NCBI GenBank assembly: GCA_020723345.1
Contig: DYJA01000017.1
Coordinates: 12,381-76,380 of the forward strand
DNA: 64,000 nt
From: Candidatus Aquidulcis sp.
GTDB lineage: Bacteria; Chloroflexota; Anaerolineae; UBA4142
Reading direction: 5' to 3'
The notes beneath the pieces are model-generated. The model worked only from the letters and a program-made list of their open reading frames with translations. It was not told the DNA's origin and made no database searches. The position numbers were made by a program, and so were the translations under genes. The number at the start of each line of letters is the position of its first letter. Position 1 is the first letter of the stretch. Positions 7,762-37,503 of this stretch are shown in pieces.

Positions 7762-9066
7762 GTGTGGGGGTTGAATGTCAACAACCGATTCGCCGAGTCG
7801 ATGCCCAGACGCAAAATGGAACCTCGATCGACAACCTTGCCCCAATGGATCGCCAAATTTGCCGCGCCGCGTACAATCGCCGCGAAGATCAAACGCGGCA
7901 TCCTCACAGGTCTGCTCGCGCTGCAAGATCGTGTTAACGCGCTCGTCAACCGCACGCGCGGCTTGCCCCCGGAACAAGGCGCGTTCGCCACCCTCTTTTA
8001 CGCCAGTCCCGTCGCGATTTGTGTTTGCAGACTGGACGATGGACGCATCGCGAATGTGAACGATAGTTTCTTGCGGATGACCGGCTACACCAAAGCCGAA
8101 GTGAGCGGACGAACCTGGCGCGAACTTGGCTTGTGGCGAGACCCAGACGACGATACCCGGATGCGGCGCGCGCTGGCGGAAAGCGGCGCGCTGAGTGACA
8201 TCGAAATCGCGTATCGTCCCAAACACGGCGAGGTGCATCACGCGCTTTTGTCGGTCGAGCAGTTGGATTGGCGCGGCGAGCGCGGCTTTTTGATGTTATG
8301 CTACGACATCACCGAACGCAAGCGCGCGGAAGAAAGACAGCGATGGCTGTTGAGCCAGGTGCGCGCCAGCCGCGAACGACTGCAAGCCCTGTCCAAGCGA
8401 TTGTTGGACGTGCAAGAAAACGAACGCCGTCATCTCGCGCGCGAATTGCACGACGAGATCGGACAGACGCTCACGGGATTGCGATTCGTATTGCAAGCCG
8501 CGGCGCGCGCCACGACGGACAATCTCCCGGCGCATCTCGACGAAGCGCAGACGCTGGTGAACGAATTGATCACGCGTGTCCGCAACCTGTCGCTCGAACT
8601 GCGCCCGGCGATGCTGGACGATCTGGGACTGTTGCCCGCGTTGTTGTGGCTGATCGAACGGTACAGCGCGCAGACGCAAATCCACATCGATTTTGGTCAC
8701 AGTGGATTGGAAAGACGCTTTCCGGCGGAAATCGAAACTGCCGCGTATCGAATTGTCCAGGAAGCCCTGACCAACATCGCGCGTCACGCGCACGAGGACG
8801 AAGCCGCCATTCGATTGTGGGTTGACGAAGACGTACTGCATTTGCAGGTTGAAGATTGGGGCGCGGGGTTCGATGTCAATGCGGCGTTGGAAGCGAATCG
8901 CAGCAGCGGCTTGAGCGGAATGCGCGAACGCGCGGGCTCGCTCGGCGGTCGCTTGCGAATCGAATCGGTGCAGGGAGTTGGCACACGCGTGGAAGGCGAA
9001 TTTCCGCTGAACGGAAAGCATTTGGAAAGGAGAGAACGTGAGCGCAACGATTCTACTCGTCGATGA
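7762..9066 (+). CDS. PAS-domain sensor histidine kinase of the NarL/DegS type
   Basis: The 434-residue kinase has an N-terminal helical region, a PAS domain at about 75-190 (YASPVAICVCRLDDGRIANVN through MLCYDITERKRAEE), a coiled linker, and a HisKA_3 domain whose phosphorylated His lies in RRHLARELHDEIGQ. The ATPase domain has EALTNIARHA and VEDWGAGFD, and ends with GLSGMRERAGSLGG, typical of this class. No membrane helix is evident, so it probably senses a cytoplasmic signal. It overlaps the response regulator gene by 29 bases. The start is uncertain: GTG 7762 lacks a clear ribosome site, and ATG 7801 or 7816 are alternatives. Confidence 0.9.
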   Translation: MWGLNVNNRFAESMPRRKMEPRSTTLPQWIAKFAAPRTIAAKIKRGILTGLLALQDRVNALVNRTRGLPPEQGAFATLFYASPVAICVCRLDDGRIANVNDSFLRMTGYTKAEVSGRTWRELGLWRDPDDDTRMRRALAESGALSDIEIAYRPKHGEVHHALLSVEQLDWRGERGFLMLCYDITERKRAEERQRWLLSQVRASRERLQALSKRLLDVQENERRHLARELHDEIGQTLTGLRFVLQAAARATTDNLPAHLDEAQTLVNELITRVRNLSLELRPAMLDDLGLLPALLWLIERYSAQTQIHIDFGHSGLERRFPAEIETAAYRIVQEALTNIARHAHEDEAAIRLWVDEDVLHLQVEDWGAGFDVNAALEANRSSGLSGMRERAGSLGGRLRIESVQGVGTRVEGEFPLNGKHLERRERERNDSTRR

Positions 9067-9688
9067 TCATCAAGTCGTTCGTCAGGGCTTGCGCGCCCTG
9101 CTCAAAGTCGAACCGGACTTGCAAGTGGTTGGCGAAGCCGGCGATGGTTTGGAGGCGATCCAAATGGTCGAACGACTGAAACCGAATGTGCTCGTCCTCG
9201 ATCTGATGATGCCGGGCGTGAATGGACTCGAAGTGACGCGCCAGGTGCATCAGCGTTTTCCCGATACGCGCATTATCGTTCTCTCGATGCACGCGAACGA
9301 AGCGTACGTGCTGGAAGCGTTACGCAACGGCGCGATTGGTTACGTCCTCAAAGAGACCGGCATCACCGATCTCGTTCACGCGGTTCGGGAGGCGCTCGCC
9401 GGACGGCGGTACCTTAGCCCGCCGCTTTCCGCACGCGCGATTGATTCGTACATCCAAAAGGCGCAAGCCGCGGAACTCGATCCGTACGAAACGCTGACGA
9501 CGCGCGAGCGCGAAGTGTTGCAACTCGCCGCGCAGGGTTTGACCAACGCCGAAGTCGCCGCGCGCCTGTCGATCAGTCCGCGCACCGCGGAAACGCATCG
9601 CGCGAACGTGATGCACAAATTGGGATTGGAGACGCAGATCGATCTCATCCGGTTCGCGCTCAAGCGCGGTATTTTGCCGATGGAATAA
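9038..9688 (+). CDS. NarL/FixJ-family response regulator
   Basis: The 216-residue regulator has a receiver domain with the acidic pair in LLVDDHQ, phosphorylation site Asp55 in VLDLMMPG, and conserved KETG near the end of the domain. It is joined to a LuxR-type helix-turn-helix: LTTREREVLQLAAQGLTNAEVAARLSISPRTAETH, then VMHKLGL. It is the cognate partner of the overlapping kinase. GTG 9038 follows GGAGAGAA and is the chosen start. A strong terminator follows. The position beside the motility island makes it a candidate regulator of that island, but no binding site can be assigned. Confidence 0.95.
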   Translation: MSATILLVDDHQVVRQGLRALLKVEPDLQVVGEAGDGLEAIQMVERLKPNVLVLDLMMPGVNGLEVTRQVHQRFPDTRIIVLSMHANEAYVLEALRNGAIGYVLKETGITDLVHAVREALAGRRYLSPPLSARAIDSYIQKAQAAELDPYETLTTREREVLQLAAQGLTNAEVAARLSISPRTAETHRANVMHKLGLETQIDLIRFALKRGILPME

Positions 9689-9756: not shown

Positions 9757-9801
9757 TACGTAGGTGTACGGATAGACGGGAGTGGAGGTTCGCCCTACAA
9801 T
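9757..9801 (+). promoter_or_regulatory. Motility promoter class A, copy 1
   Basis: CGTA-N4-TACG lies at 9759-9770, then two bases, TAGACG (-35) at 9773-9778, 17 bases, and TACAAT (-10) at 9796-9801. The same arrangement occurs at 12591, 15977 and 31484. The dyad centre would fall near -43, where class II activators bind. The predicted transcript start near 9808 rules out a start codon at 9782 and supports ATG 9917. Confidence 0.75.
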
Positions 9802-9916: not shown

Positions 9917-10759
9917 ATGGCAGAAATTTCCCAGTCTCAGATGGTTGCTGCAAAAGGGCGATTGCTCATCGTGGATGATGATCCGCGTTTGCGCGGCGCG
10001 ATGGGACAAGTGATCCGAGGCGAGGGATATTCAGTCGAGGAAGCCGGGACGGGTGAGGACGCGCTGGAATTGCTCAAGCGCGCCTCGTTTGATTTGATGA
10101 CGGTGGACATGATGATGCCCGGGATCGGCGGGGTGGAAGTGATTCGCCACGCGCGCACAATTCATCCCGATCTGGCGATCATCGTTCTCACTGGAAACCC
10201 AACTATCGAAAGCGCGATTGCCTCCGTCAAAGCCGACGTGACCGATTATTTGCTCAAACCGTACACCGGCGACGATCTCCTGCTCGCCATTTCCAAAGCG
10301 ATCCAAGAGCGCATGCGGGAGCGCCATCGGCAGCATCTCCTCGCGATGGTCGGCGAGGCGATTGAACATCTCCGCCAGCCGGAGCTGGAACACGCGTCCG
10401 TGCCGCTCGCGTCAATTGCTCCGCCTACACCCTCCGAAAATTCCTTGCGAGTTGGCGCGCTCACGCTGGATCGCGAAAAGCGAATGGCGATAGTTCATTC
10501 TACGCCGCCGCGTACCGTCGAACTGACGGAAGGCGAAGCGGCGATCCTGACGACGCTGATGAAGACGCCCAATCAAGTGTTCGCCTACAGTCAGTTGGCA
10601 GACGCGGCGTTGGGTTACAAAGACATGGACAAGTGGACGGTCGAGAGCATCGTCCGATCATCGGTTTTTCGATTGCGCCAAAAGATCGAAGCGAGTTCTG
10701 ACGATCCTCAGTTCATCCGCACCGTGCGGGGACGCGGTTACTTTTTTTCTCCGACGTGA
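9917..10759 (+). CDS. OmpR-type response regulator at the head of the motility island
   Basis: The 280-residue protein has a receiver domain (LLIVDDDPRLR, phosphorylation site Asp64 in TVDMMMPG, conserved Lys in LLKPYTG) and a C-terminal winged helix ending in FIRTVRGRGYFFSPT, the OmpR/PhoB DNA-binding signature. The linker between them is longer than usual, about 100 residues. The start at ATG 9917 is chosen because the class A promoter places the transcript start near 9808 and GGAGCAGG precedes the ATG. It shares its promoter type with arl transcription units, so it may regulate them and itself. No partner kinase lies beside it except the pair upstream or the hybrid kinase at 29000. Confidence 0.88.
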   Translation: MAEISQSQMVAAKGRLLIVDDDPRLRGAMGQVIRGEGYSVEEAGTGEDALELLKRASFDLMTVDMMMPGIGGVEVIRHARTIHPDLAIIVLTGNPTIESAIASVKADVTDYLLKPYTGDDLLLAISKAIQERMRERHRQHLLAMVGEAIEHLRQPELEHASVPLASIAPPTPSENSLRVGALTLDREKRMAIVHSTPPRTVELTEGEAAILTTLMKTPNQVFAYSQLADAALGYKDMDKWTVESIVRSSVFRLRQKIEASSDDPQFIRTVRGRGYFFSPT

Positions 10760-10773
10760 AATGGGAGGTTCCT

Positions 10774-11334
10774 ATGGATACGGAACAACGAATCGTGAAA
10801 CTGGAGCGCGAAGTGGAAACGCTGCGCGCCGAAATCGAAGGCACGCTGCTCGCCATCCGCGAGAGTCTGCCGGACAAGCCGACGGCAGCAACCGCGCGTT
10901 GGCAGAAAAAGGCGTGGGTGTTGGCGTTCATCAATGTTTTGATGGCAGTCGCGCTGTTCGCCAACATTTACCTGTTTCTGCCGGGCAACCTGCCTTTTGC
11001 GATTGACCCCAATCTCCTTTTCTGGCTGCGCGCGTTTTGGGTTGCATTGGCGTTCGTCTGGCTGTTGTTGCAAATGTACCCGCTGGCGTTGTTGCTAGAG
11101 CAAGAAGATCAAGAATGGCAAGGTGTCGTGTGGCACAGCGTGGTGGCATTCGTGCGCGCGCGTCCCGGTTTCATCGTCGCGCTGACGCTGGTGGTTCTCG
11201 TCGTGGGGATTGTCAACACCGTTTTCCCGGTCGCGTGGATCATTGTCGCGCTTTCGCTGCTGGTCGCGGTGGGGAGCATCGCGTTGCGGGACATGGTGGA
11301 CTTGTTCCGGGAGCGGTTGCACGCGCATCGATAA
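10774..11334 (+). CDS. Coiled-coil membrane protein sharing its N-terminal module with the ArlC/D/E-like protein
   Basis: The 186-residue product begins with a charged coiled coil of about 35 residues (EQRIVKLEREVETLRAEI), followed by about four membrane helices. The first 32 residues align without gaps with those of the protein at 16066, with 14 identities including EQR, LE, EI and TLL. That makes a common binding partner or common origin likely. GGGAGG before ATG 10774 defines the start. It follows the OmpR-type regulator by 14 bases and probably shares the class A promoter. The family is not recognised. A scaffold or stator role near the archaellum is inference. Confidence 0.82.
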   Translation: MDTEQRIVKLEREVETLRAEIEGTLLAIRESLPDKPTAATARWQKKAWVLAFINVLMAVALFANIYLFLPGNLPFAIDPNLLFWLRAFWVALAFVWLLLQMYPLALLLEQEDQEWQGVVWHSVVAFVRARPGFIVALTLVVLVVGIVNTVFPVAWIIVALSLLVAVGSIALRDMVDLFRERLHAHR

Positions 11335-11360: not shown

Positions 11361-11415
11361 CGAATAATTCCGCGATAAAACTGAAACGGCACAGAGCAGG
11401 CATTTCCCATATAGT
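11361..11415 (+). promoter_or_regulatory. Motility promoter class B, copy 1
   Basis: A block with CGAATAATT, a CGCGAT core and AAACTGAAACGGCAC ends at 11392, followed by exactly 17 bases and TATAGT at 11410-11415. The same block occurs at 11694-11726, again 17 bases from its -10. CGGCAC is a poor sigma-70 -35, so an activator or alternative sigma factor is likely. It would drive the gene at 11439. Confidence 0.65.
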
Positions 11416-11438
11416 AGGCGCAGCAAAGGACGCGGACG

Positions 11439-11681
11439 ATGAATCTCGAAACAAATCGATCAACCCAAAATCAAAGCACGGTCACTCGGCTCGAAGTCGC
11501 GCTCGGTGTTGGCTTTGCCGGTTTGATGACGACGCTCGCGGTGTTCATGTTCTTTTCGACCAACCCCCTGCTGACGGAACAAAGCCGCGAAGCCGCGCTC
11601 GTCGCCCTGCTCGCGCTGTGCGTCGCGGTGGGCGGCATCGGGGTTCGCGGCAGATTTGTCCCGGATGAAAAGCGCGTCTAG
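11439..11681 (+). CDS. Small two-helix membrane protein upstream of the archaellin
   Basis: The 80-residue protein has a short hydrophilic N terminus, a membrane helix around GFAGLMTTLAVFMFF, a short loop, a second helix around LVALLALCVAVGGIGV, and a charged tail. I do not recognise a family. It has its own class B promoter, the same type that precedes the archaellin gene, so expression with the filament is likely. AAAGGA lies upstream of the ATG at 11439. It is too short for an archaellum motor part known to me. An accessory or stator-associated role is speculation. Confidence 0.75.
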   Translation: MNLETNRSTQNQSTVTRLEVALGVGFAGLMTTLAVFMFFSTNPLLTEQSREAALVALLALCVAVGGIGVRGRFVPDEKRV

Positions 11682-11693
11682 CGCGCGAGGATT

Positions 11694-11749
11694 CCGAATA
11701 ATTTCGCGATGAAACTGAAACGGCACGCGATTGAATTCAATGCTAGATT
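11694..11749 (+). promoter_or_regulatory. Motility promoter class B, copy 2 (archaellin promoter)
   Basis: The CGAATAATT block with AAACTGAAACGGCAC ends at 11726. TAGATT at 11744-11749 follows after 17 bases. The predicted start near 11756 gives the archaellin message a leader of about 95 bases containing a second AAGGAGG at 11766-11772. Confidence 0.65.
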
Positions 11750-11850: not shown

Positions 11851-12444
11851 ATGAAAGGCAAATTCAACCAATTCGTGAAGGACGAGAGCGGCATCACCGC
11901 ACTCGAAACGGCGATCATCTTGATTGCGTTCGTGGTGGTCGCAGCGATCTTCGCTTTCACGGTCCTGTCGACTGGCACGTTCTTGACCGAACGGAGCAAG
12001 GAAGCGGCGTATGCCGGGCTGCAAGAAGTCCGCGGCTCGATGGAATTGAAGGGCAGCGTCGTGCTCGAGACCACGGGTCAGTACGTCGTCTTCAACCTGG
12101 CGACCGTCGCGGGCGGCGCGTCGCAAGACCTGAGCAAAGTCAAGATGACGTACCGCGATTCCACCCACAACCAAAACGTCGCGCTCGCCTCGTCGGATTG
12201 CAGCAGCGCAGCCTATCCCTCCACGGTTTTCCAGTGGGTTCCGACGCAGCCCGACGGTACGGCGCTCTCGAACTGCATCCTGATGCAGAGCAGCATCGCC
12301 AAATTCGTCGTGAATCTGGGCAGCGCCAACGCGGTGACGGCGAACAAAGTCTTCGCTCTCGAAATCAAGCCGCCGACCGGCGCCGTGATGTTGATCGAAC
12401 GGACAGCGCCCGCGCAGATCGATCAGGTCACCGACTTGAAATAA
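11851..12444 (+). CDS. arlB: Archaellin / class III signal-peptide pilin (ArlB-like major filament protein)
   Basis: The 197-residue precursor has a short, positively charged leader (MKGKFNQFVKDESG) directly followed by ITALETAIILIAFVVVAAIFAF. This is the class III signal of archaellins: cleavage after Gly14 leaves Glu at +5, then a single hydrophobic helix. The stretch LIAFVVVAA is very close to archaellins of methanogens. The rest is a beta-rich domain (SVVLETTGQYVVFNLATVAGG) with only a few charged residues. AAAGGAG precedes ATG 11851; the frame is open to 11791 but that would give an unusually long leader. It has its own promoter and a terminator, consistent with a highly expressed filament subunit. 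The prepilin peptidase at 36777 probably processes it. Confidence 0.9.
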   Translation: MKGKFNQFVKDESGITALETAIILIAFVVVAAIFAFTVLSTGTFLTERSKEAAYAGLQEVRGSMELKGSVVLETTGQYVVFNLATVAGGASQDLSKVKMTYRDSTHNQNVALASSDCSSAAYPSTVFQWVPTQPDGTALSNCILMQSSIAKFVVNLGSANAVTANKVFALEIKPPTGAVMLIERTAPAQIDQVTDLK

Positions 12445-12574: not shown

Positions 12575-12619
12575 TGCGTAGAAGTACGGATAGACGCTCG
12601 GCGTGAAACTCTCTAGAAT
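12575..12619 (+). promoter_or_regulatory. Motility promoter class A, copy 2
   Basis: CGTA-N4-TACG at 12577-12588, TAGACG at 12591-12596, 17 bases, TAGAAT at 12614-12619. It drives the oligosaccharyltransferase-like gene at 12790. Confidence 0.8.
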
Positions 12620-12759: not shown

Positions 12760-12789
12760 CATTGGCGATCCTTTCGGAGGGGAAGTCTA

Positions 12790-15700
12790 ATGGCAACGAG
12801 CAAACTGAGCACATTCTGCAATGGGATGATCGAGGCGGGTTGGCTGGCGGCATTGATTGTCGCGCCGCTGTACTTTAGCGGTTATTCCAGTACGGTGATG
12901 GACGCGGATAAATTGACGTTGCTGCGCGTCATCGTCAGCGTGATGATTGCCGCGTGGGTAATCCAATGGATCGATCAGAGGCGATCTGCGCGATCTCAGC
13001 CCACGTGGTCGCTGCGTTCTCCGCTGGTGATTCCGGTGTTGGCGCTCGCGCTCGCGTATCTGTTGGCGACGTTTACTTCGCTGACGCCGCTCATTTCCTT
13101 TTTCGGTGCGTATCATCGTCCGCAAGGGACGTACGCGCTGCTGGCGTACATCCTCGTCTTGGTGATGATCCTGCACGGTTTGCGAACGCGGCAGCAACTC
13201 GACCGCCTGATCCTGACGATCATCCTCACTAGTTTTCCGATCGCGCTGTACGGCATCTATCAGAAACTAGGTCTAGAGCCGCTCAAGTGGAGCGACGATT
13301 TTCCGGGGCGTGTCGGATCGACGCTCGGCAATCCCATTTTCCTCGCGGCGTATCTCCTGATGATTTTCCCGCTCACCGCAAGTCGGATGATCGACTGTCT
13401 GCGTTCTCTCAAAACGGTTCAGCGCATCCACCCGCCGGAGATTTTTGGCGCGATGAGTTACGCGGTGATTCTGATCGTCCAGTCCGGCGCGATCTTTTTC
13501 TCGATCAGTCGCGGTCCCTGGTTGGGCTGGTTCGTCGGAATTTTTCTGTTCGCCGCGCTGACGGCGATCACTCTGGGTCGGCGACGGCTCGTTCTCGGCG
13601 CGTTTGGATTGGGCGTCGCGGGCGTAGCGATCCTGATCGCGTTGAATGTGCCAAACACACCGCTGCAACCTGTGCGCGATCTGCCGGGCTTGTATCGTCT
13701 CAGCCGGCTCACCGATCCGACCGGCGAATTTCGTCTGTTCACTTGGCAGAACGTCGCGCGATTGGTCTTGCCGCACGCGCCGCTGCAATTTCCCGATGGC
13801 ACGCCGGATCGTTGGAATGTGATTCGCCCGCTCGTCGGCTACGGTCCCGACGCGATGGCGCTCGCGTATCCGCAGTTCGCGCTCGCCAGTCCTTTCTCCC
13901 ACGAAGCCGGAATCGATCGCAGTCACAATGCAACTTGGGACGCGCTCGTCATGACCGGCGCGCTTGGATTCGTCGCCTATCAATTGCTTTTCCTGAGTAT
14001 CTTTGTGTTCGGTCTCCGATGGCTCGGTTTGTTGGAAAATGATCGCGCGCGCAATCTATTCGTCGCGTTGTGGAGCGGGCTGGGCGCGCTGGGCGGTTTG
14101 GCAGCCATCGCGCTCGGGCAGCCGGGCTTGTTGGGCGTGAGCGTGCCCGCCGGAAATGTGATGGCGATCCTCGTCATCCTAGTTCGCGCGGCGATTCACT
14201 TGCGACAATCGTCGCGCGCGTCGCGCAGTTTGACGGATCAATTTCTCGCGGCGGCGTTGGTGGCAGGATTGGGCGGGCACTATGTCGAAAGTCAGTTCGG
14301 CATTGCGGTGCCTGCCACGTGGCTATTGGTGTTCACTTTCGCCGGGATGCTCGTCGCGCTCGGCTCTGCTCGGATTGTGGAAGATGCTGTGGTGGTTGCG
14401 CCGAAAACGCGCGCGGCAGGGTACGGCGTTCTCATCGCGATTATTCTGGCGACATTGCTGTACGAATTCATCGGCTACGACAAGAATATTTCGGATCCGT
14501 TTACGATCATTTGGCGCGCGCTGTCGTACAGTCCGGCGCAGAACGCAACTTCGTACGCCGTTTTAGGACTCGTGCTGAGTGTGACTCTGCTCGCCGTTCT
14601 GCTGATTCTTTCGGAGACGGCGCGTTCCCGCATCGGCGACGCGACGATGGATTGGCGCGGCGCGGCGATCTGGCTGACGACGATCCCGTTTGCATTGGCG
14701 GCGCTCTTTGCCTTCGGACTCGCGCAGCAAGTGGGCGCGCTCTTGCACATTCCGACGCCAGTTGCGCGGATCGAAGATGTGGTCACTCTTTCCGCACAAG
14801 CCGTCGGAATTGTCGATTGGTACACGATGGGCTTGTTGGGGTTGATCGTGTTGCTGGCGGGCGCGTTCTTGTTTGAAGCGCAGCCGATACCGGCAGTGTG
14901 GTCGGTTAATCGATGGAGCGCGGTCGCGCTCGTTCCGGTCGTCGCGCTCACATTTCTCTGGGTGAACACGTTCAACTTGAATCCGAATCGCGCGGACGTG
15001 ACTTTTCGGCTTGCCAAATTATTCGAGGATCAAATCGAATGGAACGCCGCGCTTGCGCTCGACAAGCAAGCCATTGCGTACGCGCCGACAAACGATTGGT
15101 ACTATATGGCGCTGGGGCGCGTGTACCAAGCGTACGCCCGCACCGCCGATCCTTCGGCGACAGCGCGCTTGTCCGCCGACACCGCGCGCGCGACGATCCT
15201 GAATTTGGACAGCGCGTCAATCGCTCAATTGAGCCGCCTCGATTTGTTGTATGCCGCGCAAGCCATGCTGCTGCACGCGCGCGAGCTCAATCCGCTCTAC
15301 GCCGATCACACACTCAATCTGGCGCGGTTCTATGTGCCGGAGCCGCTGCTCAATTCGCCGTCCAAAACAAAATTGGCGGAACTCTCCGCGCGGTACTATG
15401 CGCAGGCGACCGGACTCAGCCCAAGCAATCCGCTGCTCTGGAACGAGTGGGCGGAATTCGATCTGACGACGCGCAACGATCCAGATGCCGCGCTGCAAAA
15501 ACTCACCGCCTCACTGGCGCGCGATAGCAAGTTCGCGCCGACCTATGTGCTGCTGGGCAAAGTCTTTGTTGCCAAAAATGATTTCGCCAATGCGAGCGAG
15601 GCGTACCAGCGCGCCTTGGCGCTCCAACCGAACTTGGTCGAAGCCCAGAGCAAACTCGCCTTTACGTACTATCGGCAGGGCAAGATCGCCGAATCGATCG

Positions 15701-15909
15701 TGTCCTATTTAAAGTATGTCGAACTTGCGCCGGACGCCGCGAATCTTTGGGAAGCGCACAAAAATCTTGCGTTGTTATACGGGCAAGTGGGCGATACCGC
15801 GTCTGCGCTTGACGAAGCGCGCGCGGCGATCCGTCTTGCGCCTGTTGAGACGAAGCCGCTGTTGGCGGATCTGGAGGCGCAGTTACGCAACCAAGCGGGC
15901 AAACCATAG
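12790..15909 (+). CDS. Wzy/O-antigen-ligase-like membrane protein with C-terminal TPR repeats
   Basis: The 1039-residue protein has about 14 membrane helices in residues 1-730 and a C-terminal TPR region from about 740 (tandem units such as PTYVLLGKVFVAKNDFANASEAYQRALALQPN). The loop with LGNPIFLAAYLLMIFPL and later ISRGPWLGWFVG matches the Wzy_C (O-antigen ligase/polymerase) family, which includes O-oligosaccharyltransferases that glycosylate pilins. ATG 12790 follows CGGAGGGG. Transcription is from a class A promoter shared with the arl genes. It lies between the archaellin and the ArlC/D/E-like gene, so transferring a glycan to archaellin is a reasonable inference. A general envelope polysaccharide role remains possible. 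Confidence 0.85.
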   Translation: MATSKLSTFCNGMIEAGWLAALIVAPLYFSGYSSTVMDADKLTLLRVIVSVMIAAWVIQWIDQRRSARSQPTWSLRSPLVIPVLALALAYLLATFTSLTPLISFFGAYHRPQGTYALLAYILVLVMILHGLRTRQQLDRLILTIILTSFPIALYGIYQKLGLEPLKWSDDFPGRVGSTLGNPIFLAAYLLMIFPLTASRMIDCLRSLKTVQRIHPPEIFGAMSYAVILIVQSGAIFFSISRGPWLGWFVGIFLFAALTAITLGRRRLVLGAFGLGVAGVAILIALNVPNTPLQPVRDLPGLYRLSRLTDPTGEFRLFTWQNVARLVLPHAPLQFPDGTPDRWNVIRPLVGYGPDAMALAYPQFALASPFSHEAGIDRSHNATWDALVMTGALGFVAYQLLFLSIFVFGLRWLGLLENDRARNLFVALWSGLGALGGLAAIALGQPGLLGVSVPAGNVMAILVILVRAAIHLRQSSRASRSLTDQFLAAALVAGLGGHYVESQFGIAVPATWLLVFTFAGMLVALGSARIVEDAVVVAPKTRAAGYGVLIAIILATLLYEFIGYDKNISDPFTIIWRALSYSPAQNATSYAVLGLVLSVTLLAVLLILSETARSRIGDATMDWRGAAIWLTTIPFALAALFAFGLAQQVGALLHIPTPVARIEDVVTLSAQAVGIVDWYTMGLLGLIVLLAGAFLFEAQPIPAVWSVNRWSAVALVPVVALTFLWVNTFNLNPNRADVTFRLAKLFEDQIEWNAALALDKQAIAYAPTNDWYYMALGRVYQAYARTADPSATARLSADTARATILNLDSASIAQLSRLDLLYAAQAMLLHARELNPLYADHTLNLARFYVPEPLLNSPSKTKLAELSARYYAQATGLSPSNPLLWNEWAEFDLTTRNDPDAALQKLTASLARDSKFAPTYVLLGKVFVAKNDFANASEAYQRALALQPNLVEAQSKLAFTYYRQGKIAESIVSYLKYVELAPDAANLWEAHKNLALLYGQVGDTASALDEARAAIRLAPVETKPLLADLEAQLRNQAGKP

Positions 15910-15960: not shown

Positions 15961-16005
15961 TGCGTATCTGTACGGATAGACGTTGTCGACGCCAGCCCTT
16001 AAAAT
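15961..16005 (+). promoter_or_regulatory. Motility promoter class A, copy 3
   Basis: CGTA-N4-TACG at 15963-15974, TAGACG at 15977-15982, 17 bases, TAAAAT at 16000-16005. The predicted transcript start near 16012 supports GTG 16066 as the start of the next gene. Confidence 0.8.
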
Positions 16006-16065
16006 GATCGCAAGCCGGTTGGGGTGAACCGTTCGTCAACCGGAGCGGCGAAAGGAGGCAAGGCG

Positions 16066-16749
16066 GTGGAACTTGAACAAAGAGTCAAAACACTCGAATA
16101 CGAAATCAAAATTCTAAAAAATGAAATTCAGCGGACGCTCTTGGATATTCACGAGCAAGTTCTCATTCACTATTACCCGACTTTGCGGCTCGAAGAAAGC
16201 CAAGTGCCCGCCACGGTGATCCAAGCCGTCGAAGCGGCGCGCGCCAAGCAACCCGCGCGTCCCGAACCCGCCGCGCCTGTTGCACCTCCCGCGCCGCCCG
16301 CCGCGACGGCAGCGCCGCTGGTCGCGCCCGCGCCTTTGCCGGTTGTGCCCGCCGAACCTGCCCCGCTGCCGGACGCGCCTATGCCTTCGGTAAAACGCGT
16401 CACCTTGAACGATATTCGCGCGGCGCGAACAGATGCGACTGCCGCGCCTCCCTCCGGCAGTCCGCAAGCCAATCTGATCAAACTCGTCGAATGGGCAGTC
16501 AATGGCGCGACCAAATTTGGGAACGATCGCGCGATTCAACTGATCGACGTGCTAGCCCTGAAAGGGATCGTCGACCGCGCGACGAAGAACGCGCTATTCC
16601 AGGTCGTTTCGCTCAACAAGAACGCGGGACCCGAAAAGATCGTGATCAACGATCTGCTTGACGAATTGTTGAAACTGGACAAATTGCTGGGGCGCGCGGC
16701 GGACGCGGAGGAAGCGTTGACGCTGATCGAAGAGGCAAAACTTGGATAA
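16066..16749 (+). CDS. ArlC/D/E-like cytoplasmic archaellum protein (candidate)
   Basis: The 227-residue product has an N-terminal coiled coil (LEQRVKTLEYEIKILKNEIQ), a Pro/Ala-rich linker at about 70-120, and a helical C-terminal domain: LIKLVEWAVNGATKFGNDRAIQLIDVLALKGIVDRATKNALFQVV. This resembles the helical domain shared by archaeal ArlC, ArlD and ArlE, which link chemotaxis to the motor; the match is by pattern only. AAAGGAGG at 16051-16058 lies seven bases before GTG 16066. The ArlG-like gene starts with TTG overlapping its last eight bases, which implies translational coupling. The N-terminal module also occurs in the membrane protein at 10774. There is no membrane segment. Confidence 0.75.
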   Translation: MELEQRVKTLEYEIKILKNEIQRTLLDIHEQVLIHYYPTLRLEESQVPATVIQAVEAARAKQPARPEPAAPVAPPAPPAATAAPLVAPAPLPVVPAEPAPLPDAPMPSVKRVTLNDIRAARTDATAAPPSGSPQANLIKLVEWAVNGATKFGNDRAIQLIDVLALKGIVDRATKNALFQVVSLNKNAGPEKIVINDLLDELLKLDKLLGRAADAEEALTLIEEAKLG

Positions 16750-17200
16750 GATCATTGTGACCGCGCTGCTGATGACCGCCGGAGTGATCTCCGCGATTTT
16801 GCTTTTCAACGCCGTGTACCCGGCGGTGAATCAAGGTAACGATGCGATTACGAACATGCAAGTTCGCCTCGGCGACCGGATGAAAACCCAGATCGATATT
16901 CTGCACGCGGCGCAGTCCGGCGGCGTCGTGACGATCTGGGTCAAGAACACCGGCGATACGCGCATCGTTGGCGTGGACTCGAGCGATCTCTTTTTCGGAC
17001 CCGAAGGCAATTTCGCGCGTATCCCGTACGGCAGCGGGTCGCCGCACTGGGAGTACGTCGTCGAGAACGGAACGGAATGGAGTCCGCGCGCCACGCTGCG
17101 CGTCGTCGTCATCAATTTCAGCCCGCTGAATTCCGGGAGGTACTATATCAAAATGACTCTCCCGAATGGCATTACGGACGCGGACTTTATTAGTTGGTGA
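16742..17200 (+). CDS. arlG: ArlG-like archaellum stator protein
   Basis: The 152-residue protein begins with one membrane helix (IIVTALLMTAGVISAILLF), a short linker, and a beta-sandwich domain: GGVVTIWVKNTGDTRIVGVDSSDLFFGP and LRVVVINFSPLNSGRYYIKMTLPNGI. This is the layout of ArlG/ArlF, in which a soluble Ig-like domain sits outside the membrane and anchors the motor. VKNTGDT is a typical archaellum-family motif. The TTG start at 16742 overlaps the previous gene. It is followed after three bases by a second protein of the same design, so the two probably act as the ArlF/ArlG pair. Which is F and which is G is uncertain from sequence alone. Confidence 0.82.
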   Translation: MDKIIVTALLMTAGVISAILLFNAVYPAVNQGNDAITNMQVRLGDRMKTQIDILHAAQSGGVVTIWVKNTGDTRIVGVDSSDLFFGPEGNFARIPYGSGSPHWEYVVENGTEWSPRATLRVVVINFSPLNSGRYYIKMTLPNGITDADFISW

Positions 17201-17203
17201 AAA

Positions 17204-17710
17204 ATGGAAACCGTTGTCACTGCGGTAATTGTGCTCATGCTTTTGATCTTGGTGGTCTTTGGCATCTCCCAAAATCTGCTCGCGTCGCAAGCCGTGATCT
17301 CCGATTCGTCGCGCGAGATGCAGGAACGCTTGAACGAACGCGCGCGGACGGGGCTGACGCCGAGCGGCGCGACCGTTGCGCCGCTGGGCGATTCGGTCAG
17401 CGTCACGCTCAGAAATTCCGGCAGCACCAAACTTGCCGATTTTCACCAGTGGGATGTGATCTTGCAGTACACCGGCGCGGACGATAGCAGTCAAGTCAAA
17501 TGGTACGCCTATTCGACTCAATGGACGGCGCAGATTTATCAAAGCATTTCGCCGAACGTGGCAGAAGTGATCCAGCCCGGCATTCTCGATCCGGGAGAGT
17601 ACCTGACGGTCCAGGTGACCGTCGCGCCGACGATCAAAGTTGGATCGACCAATCTCGTCACCATCGCCGCGCCGAACGGAATCGCGGCGACGACTGTCTT
17701 TACCCGGTAG
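17204..17710 (+). CDS. arlF: ArlF-like archaellum stator protein
   Basis: The 168-residue protein has an N-terminal helix (VVTAVIVLMLLILVVFGISQNLL), a charged coiled stretch (SSREMQERLNERA), and a beta-sandwich with VSVTLRNSGSTKLADFHQWDVILQY and YLTVQVTVAP. The NSGSTKL turn and D-x-I-L-x-Y strand match the soluble domain of archaeal ArlF, which in archaea binds the surface layer. In this bacterium the binding surface must be something else, perhaps the wall or the lipoprotein at 39999. It lies three bases after the ArlG-like gene. The chemotaxis genes begin 83 bases downstream after a dispersed repeat and may be read on from the same promoter. Confidence 0.8.
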   Translation: METVVTAVIVLMLLILVVFGISQNLLASQAVISDSSREMQERLNERARTGLTPSGATVAPLGDSVSVTLRNSGSTKLADFHQWDVILQYTGADDSSQVKWYAYSTQWTAQIYQSISPNVAEVIQPGILDPGEYLTVQVTVAPTIKVGSTNLVTIAAPNGIAATTVFTR

Positions 17711-28915: not shown

Positions 28916-28985
28916 ACAGTAAACAGTGAACAGTATGCCGTGAGTAGTATTCAGCGCGGACGGTCTACTGTTGACTGTGGACTGA
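28909..28985. repeat. CAGTGAACAG-type repeat after the receiver gene
   Basis: The words CAGTGAACAG and AACAGTAAACAG repeat here, and the right half carries ACTGTTGACTGTGGACTG. The same words occur at 29843-29913 inside the hybrid kinase and, in the other orientation, at 4965-5021. Confidence 0.6.
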
Positions 28986-28999
28986 TGAGAGAAACATCT

Positions 29000-30973
29000 A
29001 TGTCCAAGAAAATCCTCCTCGTCGAAGACAGTCGAACCGAAGCGCTCCGCACGCAGTTGATTTTGGAACGCGCGGGCTATCAGATCACGCTCGCCGCGAA
29101 TGGCAAAGAAGGATTGTTCAAAGCGGCGATGGAAAAGCCGGACGTGATCCTGCTCGATACGTTGATGCCGCAGATGGGCGGCTTTGAGACGGTCGGGCGG
29201 CTCAAACTCGATCCGCAGACGCACAACATTCCCGTGCTCATTCTCGCGGCAGAAGACGAACGCGCGAACATGCCATCGGGAGATGCGATTGCGGCTGTTA
29301 TGCGCAAGCCCTTCGATCCGACGCGGTTGCTGAACAAACTCGACGAGATCACCAAGGGGAACGGCGGCGATCTTCACGCCGAGCTGCTCCGTGCGCAACA
29401 CCAAGTCGAAGAGGCGAAGAAAAGCCGCACCGATTTCCTGGCGAACATGAGCCACGAACTGCGGACGCCGCTGCACGAAATTATGGGCATGACCGATTTG
29501 CTGCTCGGCACCGAATTGACGAGCGAGCAGCAGGGTTTCATCAACACAACGCGCGCTTCGTCGAACGCGCTCTTGAGTTTGATCGGCGACGTGATCGAAT
29601 TTTCCGAAATCGAAGTCGGGCAACTGGGTTTGGAAGAAAAAGAATTCGATCTGGCGGAACCGATCGAGCGCGCGATTGAAATCGCGATGCCGTACGCGAC
29701 CGACAAGGGACTCGACTTGTCCACGCGCATTGCGGCGCAAATCCCAAAGCGCGTGGTCGGCGACGCAAACCGCGTGCGTCAGGTGCTGACAAATCTGGTG
29801 ACGAACGCGATCAAGTTCACAGAGCGCGGCGGCGTGGTGTTGTCAGTAAACAGTGAACAGTCAGCAGTTAACAGTGATACGGATACTGTTCACAGTTCAC
29901 TCCTCACTGTTCGCTTTGCAGTGCGCGACACCGGCATCGGCATTCCAGCAGATCGCCGCGAGATCATCTTCGAGCCGTTCCAACAAGTCGATTCGTCGGC
30001 GACGCGCCGGTTCGGCGGGATGGGGATGGGACTCGCGCTCGCCAAACAACTTGTAACATTGATGGGCGGAAAAATCTGGGCGGACAGTCAGCCCGGACAA
30101 GGCAGCACGTTCCATTTCACCGCGCAGTTCAAACGCGCGACGGTCGAACCACGTCCGGCGGCTGCCGCGTCCGCCGGCAAGGCGGCGCAGAATTTGGAAA
30201 TCTTGCTCGCGGAAGATAGCCCGACGAACCAACTCATCGCCGTTGCGAATCTCAAAAAAGCCGGGCACGCGGTTACCGTCGCGAACAACGGGCGGATCGC
30301 CGTACAGCTGTTTGAAGAGCGCGGGCGACGCGGCGCGCGTTCGTTCTTCGATTTGATTTTGATGGACGTCGCGATGCCGGAGATGGACGGGCTGGAAGCG
30401 ACGAAGGCGATCCGCGAGAAAGAAAAAGCGCTCGGCGGACACACGCCGATTATTGCGATGACCGCGTTCACGACGAAAGAATATCGCGACAAGTGCGCGG
30501 CAGCGGGGATGGACGCATACATTTCCAAACCAGTCCGCATCGACGAACTGACCAAAACATTCGAACCGTTTTTGTCGCGCGAGAGCGAAACGCCGACAGT
30601 CGCGCCGGTCGCGCTGCAAGACGCGCTGGAGATCGTCGGCGGCGATGTCGATCTGTTGAAGAGCGCGGTCGCGCTGTCGTTGCGCGAAGTGACCGGACAA
30701 TTCGAAGAATTGAAGCAAGCCCTCGCGCAGCAAAATCCCAAAGCGGTCGAAGCCAGCGCGCATCGTTTGAAAGGGATCATGGGGAATCTCGGCGCGACTG
30801 CCGCGCGCGATATCGCGCAGCGTCTCGAAACGATGGGTGAGCAGGGCAACCTCGCGGGGGGACCAGCGGCGGCGCAAGAACTGGATGGCGCGATCGCGCG
30901 CGTGATCGCGTTCTTCTCCGATCCGGACTGGGAAAAACGCGCGCGCGCAAGCCAAGGAGGAGCCGATGGGTAA
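29000..30973 (+). CDS. Hybrid sensor kinase: receiver, HisKA, ATPase, receiver, Hpt
   Basis: The 657-residue protein begins with a receiver domain (Asp53 in LLDTLMPQMGG), followed by HisKA with His152 in FLANMSHELRTPLHE, an ATPase domain (NLVTNAIKFT, VRDTGIGIP, GGMGMGLALA), a second receiver (ILMDVAMPEMDG is close to it) and an Hpt domain with ASAHRLKGIMG. There is no membrane helix, so the input is probably through the N-terminal receiver. About 20 residues (NSEQSAVNSDTDTVHSSLLT) are inserted in the ATPase domain by a repeat at 29843-29913 without breaking the frame. ATG 29000 is the chosen start. It overlaps the next receiver gene by eight bases. Confidence 0.92.
   Translation: MSKKILLVEDSRTEALRTQLILERAGYQITLAANGKEGLFKAAMEKPDVILLDTLMPQMGGFETVGRLKLDPQTHNIPVLILAAEDERANMPSGDAIAAVMRKPFDPTRLLNKLDEITKGNGGDLHAELLRAQHQVEEAKKSRTDFLANMSHELRTPLHEIMGMTDLLLGTELTSEQQGFINTTRASSNALLSLIGDVIEFSEIEVGQLGLEEKEFDLAEPIERAIEIAMPYATDKGLDLSTRIAAQIPKRVVGDANRVRQVLTNLVTNAIKFTERGGVVLSVNSEQSAVNSDTDTVHSSLLTVRFAVRDTGIGIPADRREIIFEPFQQVDSSATRRFGGMGMGLALAKQLVTLMGGKIWADSQPGQGSTFHFTAQFKRATVEPRPAAAASAGKAAQNLEILLAEDSPTNQLIAVANLKKAGHAVTVANNGRIAVQLFEERGRRGARSFFDLILMDVAMPEMDGLEATKAIREKEKALGGHTPIIAMTAFTTKEYRDKCAAAGMDAYISKPVRIDELTKTFEPFLSRESETPTVAPVALQDALEIVGGDVDLLKSAVALSLREVTGQFEELKQALAQQNPKAVEASAHRLKGIMGNLGATAARDIAQRLETMGEQGNLAGGPAAAQELDGAIARVIAFFSDPDWEKRARASQGGADG
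29843..29913. repeat. CAGTGAACAG-type repeat inside the hybrid kinase gene
   Basis: The stretch holds CAGTAAACAG, TGAACAG, AACAGTGATAC and then ACTGTTCACAG and TTCACTCCTCACTG, an inverted-repeat set like the intergenic copy at 28909. It codes for about 20 Ser/Asn/Val-rich residues between two strands of the ATPase domain and keeps the frame. Confidence 0.7.
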
Positions 30974-31467: not shown

Positions 31468-31512
31468 TGCGTAGGTGTACGGATAGACGCTTGGATCAAT
31501 ATACTCTAGAAT
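31468..31512 (+). promoter_or_regulatory. Motility promoter class A, copy 4
   Basis: CGTA-N4-TACG at 31470-31481, TAGACG at 31484-31489, 17 bases, TAGAAT at 31507-31512. It precedes the arlH-arlI-arlJ operon. The predicted start near 31519 leaves a leader of only about 15 bases before ATG 31534. Confidence 0.8.
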
Positions 31513-31533: not shown

Positions 31534-32604
31534 ATGCCAGCCAAAGTCAAGAAAATTCTGGTCATTGAAAATGATCCTCAATTGATCGAACTGATCAAAT
31601 ATCCTTTGCAGGAGGAAGGATATACGATTGTTTCTGCGCTGGATGGTCCCGATGGCTTGACCAAGTCGCGCCGCGAGCAGCCCACGCTCGTCATGGTGGA
31701 TTTCAAACTCCCCACGATGAAAGGGAATGAGGTCTGCAAGAGTATTCGCAAAGATCCCGCGACGAGCCACGAACGCATCATCATGATCGCGGACGAAAGC
31801 CAGTTGGAGCAACTGGAGATCGGACCGGGTTCCAGCATTGACGACTTTCTCATCAAGCCCTTCAATCCGGTCGAATTGATCACCAAGATCAAACCGCTGA
31901 TGACGACGGATGATGAGGCGTCGGCAAAACTCATCTCGACGGGCAACGGCGATCTGGATAACAAAATGGGCGGCGGCGTCCCGGTGGGATCGCTCACGTT
32001 GATCGAAGGGGATTCGGGCGCGGGCAAGTCGGTGCTGTCGCAGCAAATGATGTACGGTTGTCTCGTCGACGGTTACCGGCTGTCGCTCTTCACCAGCGAA
32101 AACAACGTCAAGAGTCTGGTCAAGCAAATGCGTAGTTTGAACATGGACATTTTGGATTACTTGCTGCTCGACAAACTGCGCATCTTTCCGCTCGAAACTT
32201 CGCGGTTGGGCAAAGACGCGCCGCCCGAAATTATGAAGGCGATGCGCCGCGAAAAAGGGCGCGAGATGGTTTTCATCGACTCGCTCACCTCGTCTATCCC
32301 CGCGTCGTCGGATCGCGAAGTGCTGGGATTCTTTGAAGAAGGCAAACGGATGTGCGGCGACGGTTCGACGGTCGTCGTCATCATTCACTCGCACGGCTTG
32401 ACGCGCGAACTGCTCACGCGGATCCGCTCGCTGTGCGACGCGCACCTGCAACTCCGCACCGAAGAAGTCGGCAACAAACTGGTCAAGACCTTGGAAGTGA
32501 CCAAGGTGCGCGGCGCGGAGCAAACGACCGGCAACATCGTCAGTTTTGAAGTCGAGCCCGGTTGGGGCATTCGCGTCATCCCGATCAACAAGGTGAAAGG
32601 ATAA
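31534..32604 (+). CDS. arlH: ArlH-like archaellum ATPase-scaffold with N-terminal receiver domain
   Basis: The 356-residue protein joins a receiver domain (about 5-120) to an ArlH/RecA-like domain (about 130-356). The receiver has IENDP, Asp56 in MVDFKLPTMKG and Lys108 in FLIKPFNP. The switch Thr/Ser position reads Ala in MIADES, so the output may be altered. The ArlH part begins with LISTGNGDLDNKMGG, has Walker A GDSGAGKS at 159-166 and Walker B MVFIDS around 245-250, and ends near FEVEPGWGIRVIPI. In archaea ArlH binds ArlI and acts in switching, but archaeal ArlH has no receiver. The fusion suggests direct input from CheA or the hybrid kinase. Confidence 0.92.
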   Translation: MPAKVKKILVIENDPQLIELIKYPLQEEGYTIVSALDGPDGLTKSRREQPTLVMVDFKLPTMKGNEVCKSIRKDPATSHERIIMIADESQLEQLEIGPGSSIDDFLIKPFNPVELITKIKPLMTTDDEASAKLISTGNGDLDNKMGGGVPVGSLTLIEGDSGAGKSVLSQQMMYGCLVDGYRLSLFTSENNVKSLVKQMRSLNMDILDYLLLDKLRIFPLETSRLGKDAPPEIMKAMRREKGREMVFIDSLTSSIPASSDREVLGFFEEGKRMCGDGSTVVVIIHSHGLTRELLTRIRSLCDAHLQLRTEEVGNKLVKTLEVTKVRGAEQTTGNIVSFEVEPGWGIRVIPINKVKG

Positions 32605-32609
32605 GTTGG

Positions 32610-34292
32610 GTGGCAACCTTTCGACTGCCTTTTGCGAATGAAAAAACATCCGCCGATTTGGGACCAGAAGCGCGGGCGAAAATTCGCGCGCGCCTCGCGC
32701 CCAAGTTGCAGGAAGCGTGTGCCGAAAGCGAAATGCTGTTCGATTATGTGTGCCGTTTGCCGTTGGATGAGATCGGGGTGCCGGACTATTACCCCAAGAT
32801 CACGCGCGATCAACAGTACCTCGAGCGCCGCAATCTGATCTATCCAATCGAAGGTGGTCTGTTCGTTCACATTTATCCCAACGACAAAGCGGAACGCGAT
32901 ATCTACGTTCCCATCGAACCGCACTTGACGGTCGATCTGAGTGAAATCATCCCCAAAGTCGAAACCAAGTTGCTCAATTTCGTCGAAAAGATTGGCGCGG
33001 AGGAAACGGACGCAGGGAAACGGACGGAATTGCTCAAAGCGGTTGACGCCAGCGCGAGCACCAACGGCGCGACGAACAAGATTCACGTCACGCTGCGGGA
33101 AATGGACGCGCTGCGCTACATTCTCGCGCGCGACAAAGTTGGGTTCGGTCCCCTCGCGCCGATGCTGCTCGACCGACACATCGAAGATATTTCGTGCAGC
33201 GGGGTCGGTCCGATCTTCATCGAGCACAAGGTTTTCAAATCCATCGAAGCCGCGATTACGTTTGTGACGGAAGACGAACTCGATCAATTCGTGATCTGGC
33301 TCGGCGAGTGGATCAAGCGTCCCGTCACCGTCCGCAATCCCATCGTCGACGCGACGCTGCCCGATGGCTCGCGCATCAACATCGTCTACGGCACCGACGT
33401 TTCTAAACGCGGCAGCAATTTTACCATCCGCAAGTTCGCCGAAGTCCCCACCAGCATTATGGAATTGATCGATTTTGGGACGCTCGATTACATGATGGCA
33501 GCGTATCTTTCTTTTGTGCTGGAGGAAGGACTGAACGTGTTCGTCGTCGGCGCGACGGCGTCGGGCAAGACGACGACGATGAACGCGATCACGACGTTCA
33601 TTCGCCCGGACAAAAAAATCGTCAGCATCGAAGACACGCCGGAACTTCAGGTGCCGCACAAGAATTGGATCCGCGAGACGACGCGCGGTTCGTCCAAAGA
33701 AAACACCGGCGCTGAAGTCGGCATGTTCGATCTGTTGAAAGCCGCCCTGCGTCAACGCCCCGACCGGATCATCGTCGGCGAGATTCGCGGCGAAGAAGGC
33801 GCGATCGCGTTTCAAGCGATGCAGACCGGTCACGGCGTCATGTCGACCTTTCACGCGGCGTCGGTGGAAAGACTGGTGCAGCGTCTTTCGGGCAGCCCGA
33901 TCAATATTCCCAAGACGTACATCGACAATCTGGATTGCGTGCTGATTCAGCAAGCGGTCAAAGTGCCGGGCAAGGGCATGGCGCGCCGCGTGACCAGCAT
34001 CAACGAAATCGTCGGGTACGATCCGTCGTCGGAAAGTTTTTCTTTCGTCGAAGCGTTTCGCTGGAATCCGGCGACCGATACGTTCGATTTTCCCGGCTTT
34101 ATGAACAGTTTCATTCTGGAAGAAAAGATTTCGCCGCGGCGCGGCATTCCACCGTTCAAGCGCAAAGTGATCTACACCGAATTGAAACGCCGCGCCAAAA
34201 TTTTCCAGCGACTCCATCAAGAAAGGAAGCTGAAGGATTTCTATGAAGTCTTCGCCGTCCTCGCTGAAGCGCAGCGTCAAAAACTACTTTGA
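32610..34292 (+). CDS. arlI: ArlI-like archaellum motor ATPase
   Basis: The 560-residue product is a type IV pilus/archaellum secretion ATPase close to ArlI. The N-terminal part ends near 300. The motor domain has Walker A GATASGKTT at 314-322, the Asp box EDTPEL at 341-346, Walker B RIIVGEIRGEE around 386-396, and the His box TGHGVMSTFHA near 407-417. ArlI powers both assembly and rotation of the archaellum. GTG 32610 with AAAGGA upstream is the start; an upstream ATG at 32562 would overlap arlH. It overlaps arlJ by 50 bases, so translation is tightly linked. Confidence 0.95.
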   Translation: MATFRLPFANEKTSADLGPEARAKIRARLAPKLQEACAESEMLFDYVCRLPLDEIGVPDYYPKITRDQQYLERRNLIYPIEGGLFVHIYPNDKAERDIYVPIEPHLTVDLSEIIPKVETKLLNFVEKIGAEETDAGKRTELLKAVDASASTNGATNKIHVTLREMDALRYILARDKVGFGPLAPMLLDRHIEDISCSGVGPIFIEHKVFKSIEAAITFVTEDELDQFVIWLGEWIKRPVTVRNPIVDATLPDGSRINIVYGTDVSKRGSNFTIRKFAEVPTSIMELIDFGTLDYMMAAYLSFVLEEGLNVFVVGATASGKTTTMNAITTFIRPDKKIVSIEDTPELQVPHKNWIRETTRGSSKENTGAEVGMFDLLKAALRQRPDRIIVGEIRGEEGAIAFQAMQTGHGVMSTFHAASVERLVQRLSGSPINIPKTYIDNLDCVLIQQAVKVPGKGMARRVTSINEIVGYDPSSESFSFVEAFRWNPATDTFDFPGFMNSFILEEKISPRRGIPPFKRKVIYTELKRRAKIFQRLHQERKLKDFYEVFAVLAEAQRQKLL

Positions 34293-35727
34293 AGAGATTT
34301 CCAGTTTCGATCTCTTTTATCAGTTGACGTACATGACCGCGACTTCGACGGCGGGAATTTCGCGCGCCCGTACGTTTCAGTTGGCGCGCGAATTGCCCGC
34401 GGCGCCCGCGCAGTACTTTCGCAGCATTCACGAGGTCGCGGAGAACTTGCGCTACAACTATCCCGACGCAGTACGTTTGGTGGGCGAACAAGTCAAGTCG
34501 CCGCACACCAAGACCTTCTTGCTCCGGCTTTCGGACGCGCTCCGCTCCGGCGAACCGCTCCCCGCGTTCTTGAAACGCGAAGCCCAAGTGCAAGGCGAGA
34601 ATTATCAAAACGACTATCTCAAAAGTTTGGAGAGCATGAAAAAGTGGACCGACGCGTACGCCGCCGTCGCCGTGTCCGCGTCGCTGATCGTGATCATCAA
34701 CATGGTGATGACGATGATTTACAGCATCAGTCCAACGTTGATGGCGGCGATGATCTTTGTATCGGTTGCGTCCACGTTCGGCGTCGCCTGGCTGATCTTT
34801 CGCGCGTCGCCGCAGGAAACCAAGTTCGTTCAGTTGGAGCGCGGCTCCAAAATGCAGCAACTCAGTCGCCGCCTCTTTCTAATTTTGGTGCCTGCCATGT
34901 TCGTGGTCTGCACGCTGCTCGCAGCGCTCGGCTTGGACAAAGGGTGGCTGTTGATCTTGGCGGGGCTATTCCTCGCGCCGCTTGGGTACATTAGTGGGAA
35001 AGCGGATCAGATTACCACCGCCAAAGACGCGGAGATCAGTTCATTCCTGCGTTCGCTGGGCGGCAACGCCACCTCGCGCGGCACGACATTGAAAGACGCG
35101 CTCGCCAGCATGAAGCGCGATTCGTTCCCGACGCTTCAGCCGGATATCCGTATGTTGGATTTGCGTCTCAAATCGTTCGGCAAGCCCGAACTGTGTTGGC
35201 GCACCTTTGGCACCGAAACCGGCAGCAAAATCGCCGAACAAGCCGTCGGCATTTTCTACGAAGCGATCAACCTGGGCGGCGATCCGGAGCGCGCCGGGAA
35301 TCTCACGAGTGAGTTTTCGATGAAGACGGCGATGTTGCGCGCGCAGCGCATTGGCATCGCGGCGACTTTTTCGTGGCTCACCATCGCGATGCACGTCGTG
35401 ATGGCGGGGCTGATGATCTTCCTGATCGGCATTCTGGAACAATTCGGCATCAAGTTGGAAGAAGCCATGGCGTCGATGGGCAGCAGCACCGAGGTGTTAG
35501 GCACGATGGGGCTGCAAAGTATGTTTTCCTTCAGTTCGAGCCAAGTGCATTTTTTGTACGGGCTTACCGTCGGGCTGATCATTCTGCTCTCGGTCATCAA
35601 TGCCTTTGCCATCGTCGCCAGTCAGGGCACGCATTTTGTCAAAATGACTTTTTATCTCGCCATTTTGCTGGTTCTCTCCGGTATTTGTTTTCTAACCGTT
35701 CCTTCGATGGTCAAGTGGGTGATGTGA
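34243..35727 (+). CDS. arlJ: ArlJ-like archaellum membrane platform protein
   Basis: The 494-residue protein is the platform protein of the TadC/T2SF family: a cytoplasmic N-terminal region with an ELPAAPAQYF-type motif, membrane helices near 140-190, 206-250, 368-398 and two more at the C-terminal end, and two soluble helical domains between them. In archaea it is the only polytopic membrane part of the motor and is bound by ArlI. It begins 50 bases inside arlI. The first ATG is well placed after GAAGGA. The gene after it begins one base after the stop. Confidence 0.92.
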   Translation: MKSSPSSLKRSVKNYFEEISSFDLFYQLTYMTATSTAGISRARTFQLARELPAAPAQYFRSIHEVAENLRYNYPDAVRLVGEQVKSPHTKTFLLRLSDALRSGEPLPAFLKREAQVQGENYQNDYLKSLESMKKWTDAYAAVAVSASLIVIINMVMTMIYSISPTLMAAMIFVSVASTFGVAWLIFRASPQETKFVQLERGSKMQQLSRRLFLILVPAMFVVCTLLAALGLDKGWLLILAGLFLAPLGYISGKADQITTAKDAEISSFLRSLGGNATSRGTTLKDALASMKRDSFPTLQPDIRMLDLRLKSFGKPELCWRTFGTETGSKIAEQAVGIFYEAINLGGDPERAGNLTSEFSMKTAMLRAQRIGIAATFSWLTIAMHVVMAGLMIFLIGILEQFGIKLEEAMASMGSSTEVLGTMGLQSMFSFSSSQVHFLYGLTVGLIILLSVINAFAIVASQGTHFVKMTFYLAILLVLSGICFLTVPSMVKWVM

Positions 35728-35728
35728 T

Positions 35729-36691: not shown

Positions 36692-36713
36692 GAACGCGCG
36701 CGCGTTTGTAGCG

Positions 36714-36763
36714 GGCGATTCATCGCCGCTCTGTGCGTTAACGCGCCAACTACGAACCACTGA
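36714..36763. repeat. GTAG/CTAC dispersed repeat before the prepilin peptidase gene
   Basis: TTGTAGCGGGCGATTCATCGCCGC and the following GTTAACGCGCCAACTACGAAC form an imperfect palindrome. It is of the same design as the one at 17716-17761. Confidence 0.5.
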
Positions 36764-36776
36764 AACGAGTTGATCA

Positions 36777-37481: not shown

Positions 37482-37503
37482 GGTAGGGGTATCATAACGC
37501 GCG

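Follow-up and report, generated by a model that had tools for sequence, protein, structure and literature searches.

We propose that two near-identical blocks of 32 bases in the archaellum locus of Candidatus Aquidulcis sp. are sites for an OmpR-family response regulator encoded in the same locus, which would activate the archaellin gene and an archaellin paralogue through RNA polymerase carrying the primary sigma factor. We put the probability of this reading at about 0.8. The window under analysis is a stretch of 64,000 nt, and its relevant features are collected in Table 1. In the preliminary description the blocks were taken as a shared promoter element (class B), with few differences between them, a common end in CGGCAC and a distance of 17 bases to a -10 element. 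That account is borne out. With starts 334 bp apart, the blocks are identical at 30 of 32 positions, and in a BLAST comparison of the two stretches the match extends to 35 nt (E=1e-10). The identity has sharp edges: it drops to the random level in the 30 nt upstream (8/30) and in the spacers (2/17), and within the blocks it is much higher than in the flanks or in the genes that follow them. The predicted leaders measure 17 nt for the gene of the 80-aa protein and 95 nt for archaellin. A dispersed repeat, found far from promoters, is ruled out because the whole genome (6.34 Mb, up to three mismatches allowed) holds no copies beyond these two; a reversed control pattern gave no matches in the same sequence. 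A match to CGGCAC-N17-TATAGT on contig 7 (L001) lies inside a 547-codon frame and was set aside, as it does not match the block.

Table 1. Features of the archaellum locus, with positions in the window
Feature	Position	Strand	Remarks
NarL-type kinase/regulator pair	7762-9688	+	regulator at 9038-9688
Class A element	9758..9801	+	ACGTAGGTGTACGGATAGACG-N17-TACAAT, before response-regulator gene
OmpR-family response regulator	9917..10759	+	Response_reg (receiver) and Trans_reg_C; ORF opens at 9782, ATG at 9917 the likely start
Coiled-coil membrane protein	10774..11334	+	close behind regulator gene; no block of its own in the window
Block 1	11361..11392	+	CGAATAATTCCGCGATAAAACTGAAACGGCAC; predicted operator, precedes truncated archaellin paralogue; 11-bp half-sites CGAATAATTCC / GCGATAAAACT / GAAACGGCAC
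-10 element TATAGT	11410..11415	+	exactly 17 nt past block 1
80-aa membrane protein	11439..11681	+	truncated, diverged archaellin paralogue by alignment; no Pfam family
Block 2	11695..11726	+	CGAATAATTTCGCGATGAAACTGAAACGGCAC; predicted operator of archaellin promoter; 11-bp half-sites CGAATAATTTC / GCGATGAAACT / GAAACGGCAC
-10 element TAGATT	11744..11749	+	exactly 17 nt past block 2
Archaellin	11851..12444	+	Arch_flagellin PF01917, 1.5e-23; leader ends DESG before ITALETA
Class A element	12576..12619	+	before O-antigen-ligase/TPR gene
O-antigen-ligase (Wzy-like, glycan-ligase)/TPR membrane protein	12787-15909	+
Class A element	15962..16005	+	before ArlCDE-like/ArlG/ArlF operon
ArlCDE-like, ArlG, ArlF	16024-17710	+	then chemotaxis genes
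Hybrid kinase	28940-30970		HisKA, HATPase, two receivers, Hpt; inside locus
Class A element	31469..31512	+	before ArlH/I/J genes
ArlH/I/J, type IV prepilin peptidase, PilN	31534-38880	+

What do the two promoters serve? One precedes archaellin itself. The gene behind the other was first described as coding for a small membrane protein, which it does; its kinship to archaellin had gone unnoticed. Ungapped alignment of the two proteins gives 33% identity over 52 aa, a score reached by none of 1000 shuffled sequences, and by this alignment the small protein is a truncated paralogue of archaellin in which the cleavage glycine is missing. Threonine stands in place of the -1 glycine and Glu+5 is retained, so the protein lacks a class III signal peptide with Gly at -1. 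As the glycine required by the leader peptidase has become threonine, the protein is probably not processed into the filament. Several other proteins of the locus deserve mention. Over its first 30-40 residues the coiled-coil protein is similar to the N-terminal end of the ArlCDE-like protein, which suggests a common docking helix. The Wzy-like/TPR protein is found near archaellin in those relatives with enough sequence and possibly glycosylates it. ArlH, a KaiC-type ATPase (31534-32601), is fused at its N terminus to a response-regulator receiver domain (PF00072). Two relatives (L180:16004-17071; L181:10683-11750) keep this fusion along its whole length at 79% identity, and several other Anaerolineae have it at 40-69%; many further ArlH proteins of Chloroflexota align only without the receiver. 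According to PMC12488501, Chloroflexota are without the CheF adaptor, and chemotaxis might be linked to the motor by a different protein; the ArlH receiver is a candidate for this link.

The internal structure of the block points to the class of protein that would bind it. It resolves into units of 11 (CGAAT-N6, GCAAT-N6, GAAAS-GGCAC) with an xxAAY-like core, and can also be written CGAAT-N6-GCRAT-N6-GAAAC, three 11-bp direct repeats. In the autocorrelation of the profile of 15 sites, lag 11 is the sole significant one (p=0.0024; 0.03 corrected for lags). A reading of the block as an inverted repeat, for which a few short axes scored, was set aside. Tandem direct repeats of about 11-bp pitch are what an OmpR/PhoB-type operator displays. 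Counted back from the -10 element, the three units begin near -61, -50 and -39 and the array spans about -61 to -30; at these 11-bp steps the units therefore lie on one face of the helix, with the last at the -35 position. Downstream, TAnnnT is present at 16-17 nt in 14 of the 15 order-level sites, and the last six bases of the block (CGGCAC, GGGCAC and variants) do not resemble TTGACA. An ordinary -10 element at fixed distance, the lack of a good -35 and a putative activator site in its place are the hallmarks of a class II promoter of the primary sigma factor. The preliminary description had called the hexamer a poor -35 and suggested either an activator or another sigma factor; an activator site, whose three 11-bp repeats reach the -35 position, is the best reading of the sequence.

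Conservation of the block was surveyed in the order to which the organism belongs; the absences reported are those of draft genomes. Archaellin is found in 7 of 20 genomes, and in all seven the block precedes an archaellin gene; in one of them (G014) the contig that carries this arrangement ends inside the archaellin gene. Altogether 15 copies of the block were recovered from nine genomes. A second block stands before the coiled-coil gene in five relatives (G013, G001, G011, G014 and G015), while in G007 this gene has none. In the window the extra block precedes the truncated archaellin instead of the coiled-coil gene, and this differing placement among lineages indicates that the same element has been redistributed. 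The coiled-coil protein is itself restricted, within the order, to archaellin-bearing genomes. In the seven archaellin-bearing genomes the block occurs only before archaellins, the adjacent coiled-coil gene and the 80-aa gene of the window, which agrees with the earlier proposal that it marks filament genes and not motor genes. G013 carries two tandem archaellins (L014:10012-11225), with a block directly upstream of the first only. At up to three mismatches, the site pattern matched at these loci only in 10 genomes and a control pattern gave no match; the detectable regulon in the window genome is therefore two promoters. Three matches with three mismatches outside the locus (L022, L029 and L030) are in coding sequence and were taken as chance, two of them falling in homologous membrane-protein genes. 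Outside the order, the block was absent before the archaellins of other families tested (Anaerolineae, Dehalococcoidia), and no convincing 11-bp array of any kind was seen there. Where their flanks were checked, these archaellins were also without the orthologous regulator and the coiled-coil protein.

The block is tightly associated with the OmpR-family regulator, whose gene encodes a receiver and a Trans_reg_C domain and is linked to the site with and without archaellin. An orthologue of the regulator adjoins the coiled-coil or the archaellin gene in six of the seven archaellin-bearing genomes; the exception is G011, whose contig breaks off a short way upstream of the coiled-coil gene. The block is present at 8/8 orthologous regulator loci of the order, including two genomes without detected archaellin. 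In these two (G008 and G019) the regulator is 43% and 39% identical, no archaellin or coiled-coil gene was detected, and the site is found about 60-70 bp past the regulator gene, ahead of a gene with a receiver domain. Since the site follows the regulator and not archaellin, the OmpR-type protein is the prime candidate for its ligand. A half-site model trained on the order-level sites only was then applied to 22 distant homologues of the regulator (35-46%) in other families. In 9 of the 22 the single best match in the whole locus lay no more than about 110 bp past the end of the regulator gene; it was on the same strand and was followed by a -10 element (binomial p about 3e-10, with loci that are not independent of each other; 4/8 families); in the remaining 13 no best match was located there. 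Seven of the distant sites score at least 15 with a pitch of 11 bp, and none does so with a pitch of 7-10 or 12-16 bp. Behind the distant sites are genes for a second OmpR-type regulator (L156) and a protoglobin (L160), and an aldehyde ferredoxin oxidoreductase gene is found further downstream of another (L158). In another family, at L146:2392-3782, which L147 resembles by sequence, a gene for a TadE-like pilin (PF07811, 8.7e-15) lies behind a homologue of the regulator and a site of 11-bp repeats, hinting that the regulator family may serve pilin-type genes elsewhere. As regulator and site stand together before genes of other functions, the pair appears to predate its use in the archaellum and to extend beyond it. 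One caveat applies to all such linkage, namely that an element close to a regulator gene can travel with that gene, whether or not it is a target.

Three other explanations were weighed against this evidence. Adjacency proves no binding, and the blocks may be activator sites for another protein, for instance the NarL-type regulator whose kinase pair lies upstream, the OmpR-type gene being a mere neighbour. We consider this very unlikely: near archaellin in the relatives examined, NarL matches are at the level of the receiver domain only, whereas the site accompanies homologues of the OmpR gene even in families without archaellins, and 11-bp direct repeats are the OmpR/PhoB-type layout (PMC4415409). 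The two blocks could also have arisen when promoter and archaellin were duplicated together, the first copy decaying to the 80-aa protein, with no special regulator involved. The paralogy of that protein and the tandem archaellins of G013 fit such an event, which probably explains the position of the two copies in the window. As the full explanation it is contradicted by blocks before non-homologous genes, the unrelated coiled-coil gene in relatives and the receiver gene in G008 and G019, and we regard it as very improbable. Moreover, the block has been kept at 30/32 while spacers and upstream flanks diverged, so it has been held by selection or conversion.

The remaining explanation, in which the block is recognised by an alternative sigma factor (sigma-54, ECF or similar), takes up the second suggestion of the preliminary description and finds no support; we judge it highly improbable. 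GGCAC does resemble the sigma-54 -24 element, and GG-N10-GC can be picked out by eye in block 1, but block 2 reads GG-N10-AA, so that the pattern fails when both promoters are considered. A search for the sigma-54 DNA-binding domain (PF04552) found none in the genome itself (95.5% complete) and was positive in four control genomes, which rules out a sigma-54 promoter; RpoN is absent. For alternative sigma factors in general, the -10 elements, at 16-17 nt, conform to the ordinary TAnnnT type, and a sequence conserved over 32 nt with a period of 11 bp does not look like a sigma pattern.

How might an OmpR-family activator work at these promoters? Three subunits of the regulator would bind head to tail, one to each 11-bp direct repeat, on one face of the helix. 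The bound regulator, extending from about -61 to -30, would replace the missing -35 box and recruit RNA polymerase with the primary sigma factor to the -10 element 17 nt away, as in class II activation. In this manner a phosphorylation signal may be converted into transcription of archaellin and its truncated paralogue. The action of the block could be repressive, and the missing -35 argues for activation. The nearest complete kinase in the window belongs to the NarL pair; the hybrid kinase inside the locus is a possible source of phosphate for the OmpR-family regulator.

The genome contains exactly four copies of a separate promoter element, class A (GCGTANNNGTACGGATAGACG-N17-TANAAT), all of them in the archaellum locus. 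It precedes the regulator gene and the machinery operons, and thus the putative activator of the filament sits behind the machinery class of promoter. This layout has the wiring of a cascade, in which class A would start the motor operons and the regulator, and the regulator would then switch on the filament via class B. The filament would then come after the motor, as it does in flagella, with no need of a late sigma factor like the flagellar one. We advance this two-tier scheme, and with it any order in time, as a tentative possibility that we do not favour. The preliminary description had likened the two elements to early and late classes. A distinct element before the regulator and three machinery operons speaks for this part of the account; against it, the class A element was absent from seven related genomes, and no substitute was seen upstream of three operons in four of these.

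The arrangement has parallels in known systems. PHO-box activator sites stand in for the -35 element at promoters of the primary sigma factor. The PHO box of PhoB/PhoP, like the block, is built of 11-nt direct repeat units; its half-site core is CTGTCAT, whereas that of the block is xxAAY (CGAAT, GCRAT, GAAAC). The block differs from the PHO box in having three units (four can be made out by eye at some distant loci) and in its target, an archaeal-type filament, and the distance from its last unit to the -10 element is greater by about one helical turn than in E. coli pstS. In Archaea, regulators of the winged-helix type (ArnR, EarA) act at archaellin promoters together with archaeal TBP/TFB, in contrast to the bacterial two-component regulator and bacterial -10 element found here. 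In flagella, early and late promoter classes divide machinery from filament. The window likewise has two promoter classes, with the gene of the class B regulator behind a class A promoter; unlike flagella, no late sigma factor of the flagellar type is implicated, and class A is confined to the window genome among those tested. Head-to-tail binding of winged-helix response regulators to 11-nt direct repeats is described for PhoB-type operators in PMC4415409, citing Blanco et al. 2002.

The archaella of Chloroflexota have been described (Nat Microbiol 2025, PMC12488501), and the machine is the same, with archaellin, ArlCDE, ArlG/F and ArlH/I/J in one bacterial locus. In that article and in a 2026 follow-up (PMC13319060) promoters are unmentioned; the passages of the former that were consulted describe no regulator of the locus, and the order-specific regulator, the coiled-coil protein and the operator were not encountered in them. 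A search limited to the open literature found no published account of archaellum control in bacteria.

What are the implications for the archaella of bacteria? These filaments have been described only recently, and we propose here a concrete operator, a regulator and defined target genes. As likely sites for a bacterial two-component regulator, the blocks show how the filament gene could come under bacterial control. They suggest that the gene for the archaeal filament, after its transfer, was placed under a two-component regulator; elsewhere in the class, relatives of this regulator adjoin genes for a TadE-like pilin or metabolic genes. For a transfer that crosses domains, the question of how a foreign machine gains the regulation of its host becomes directly testable.
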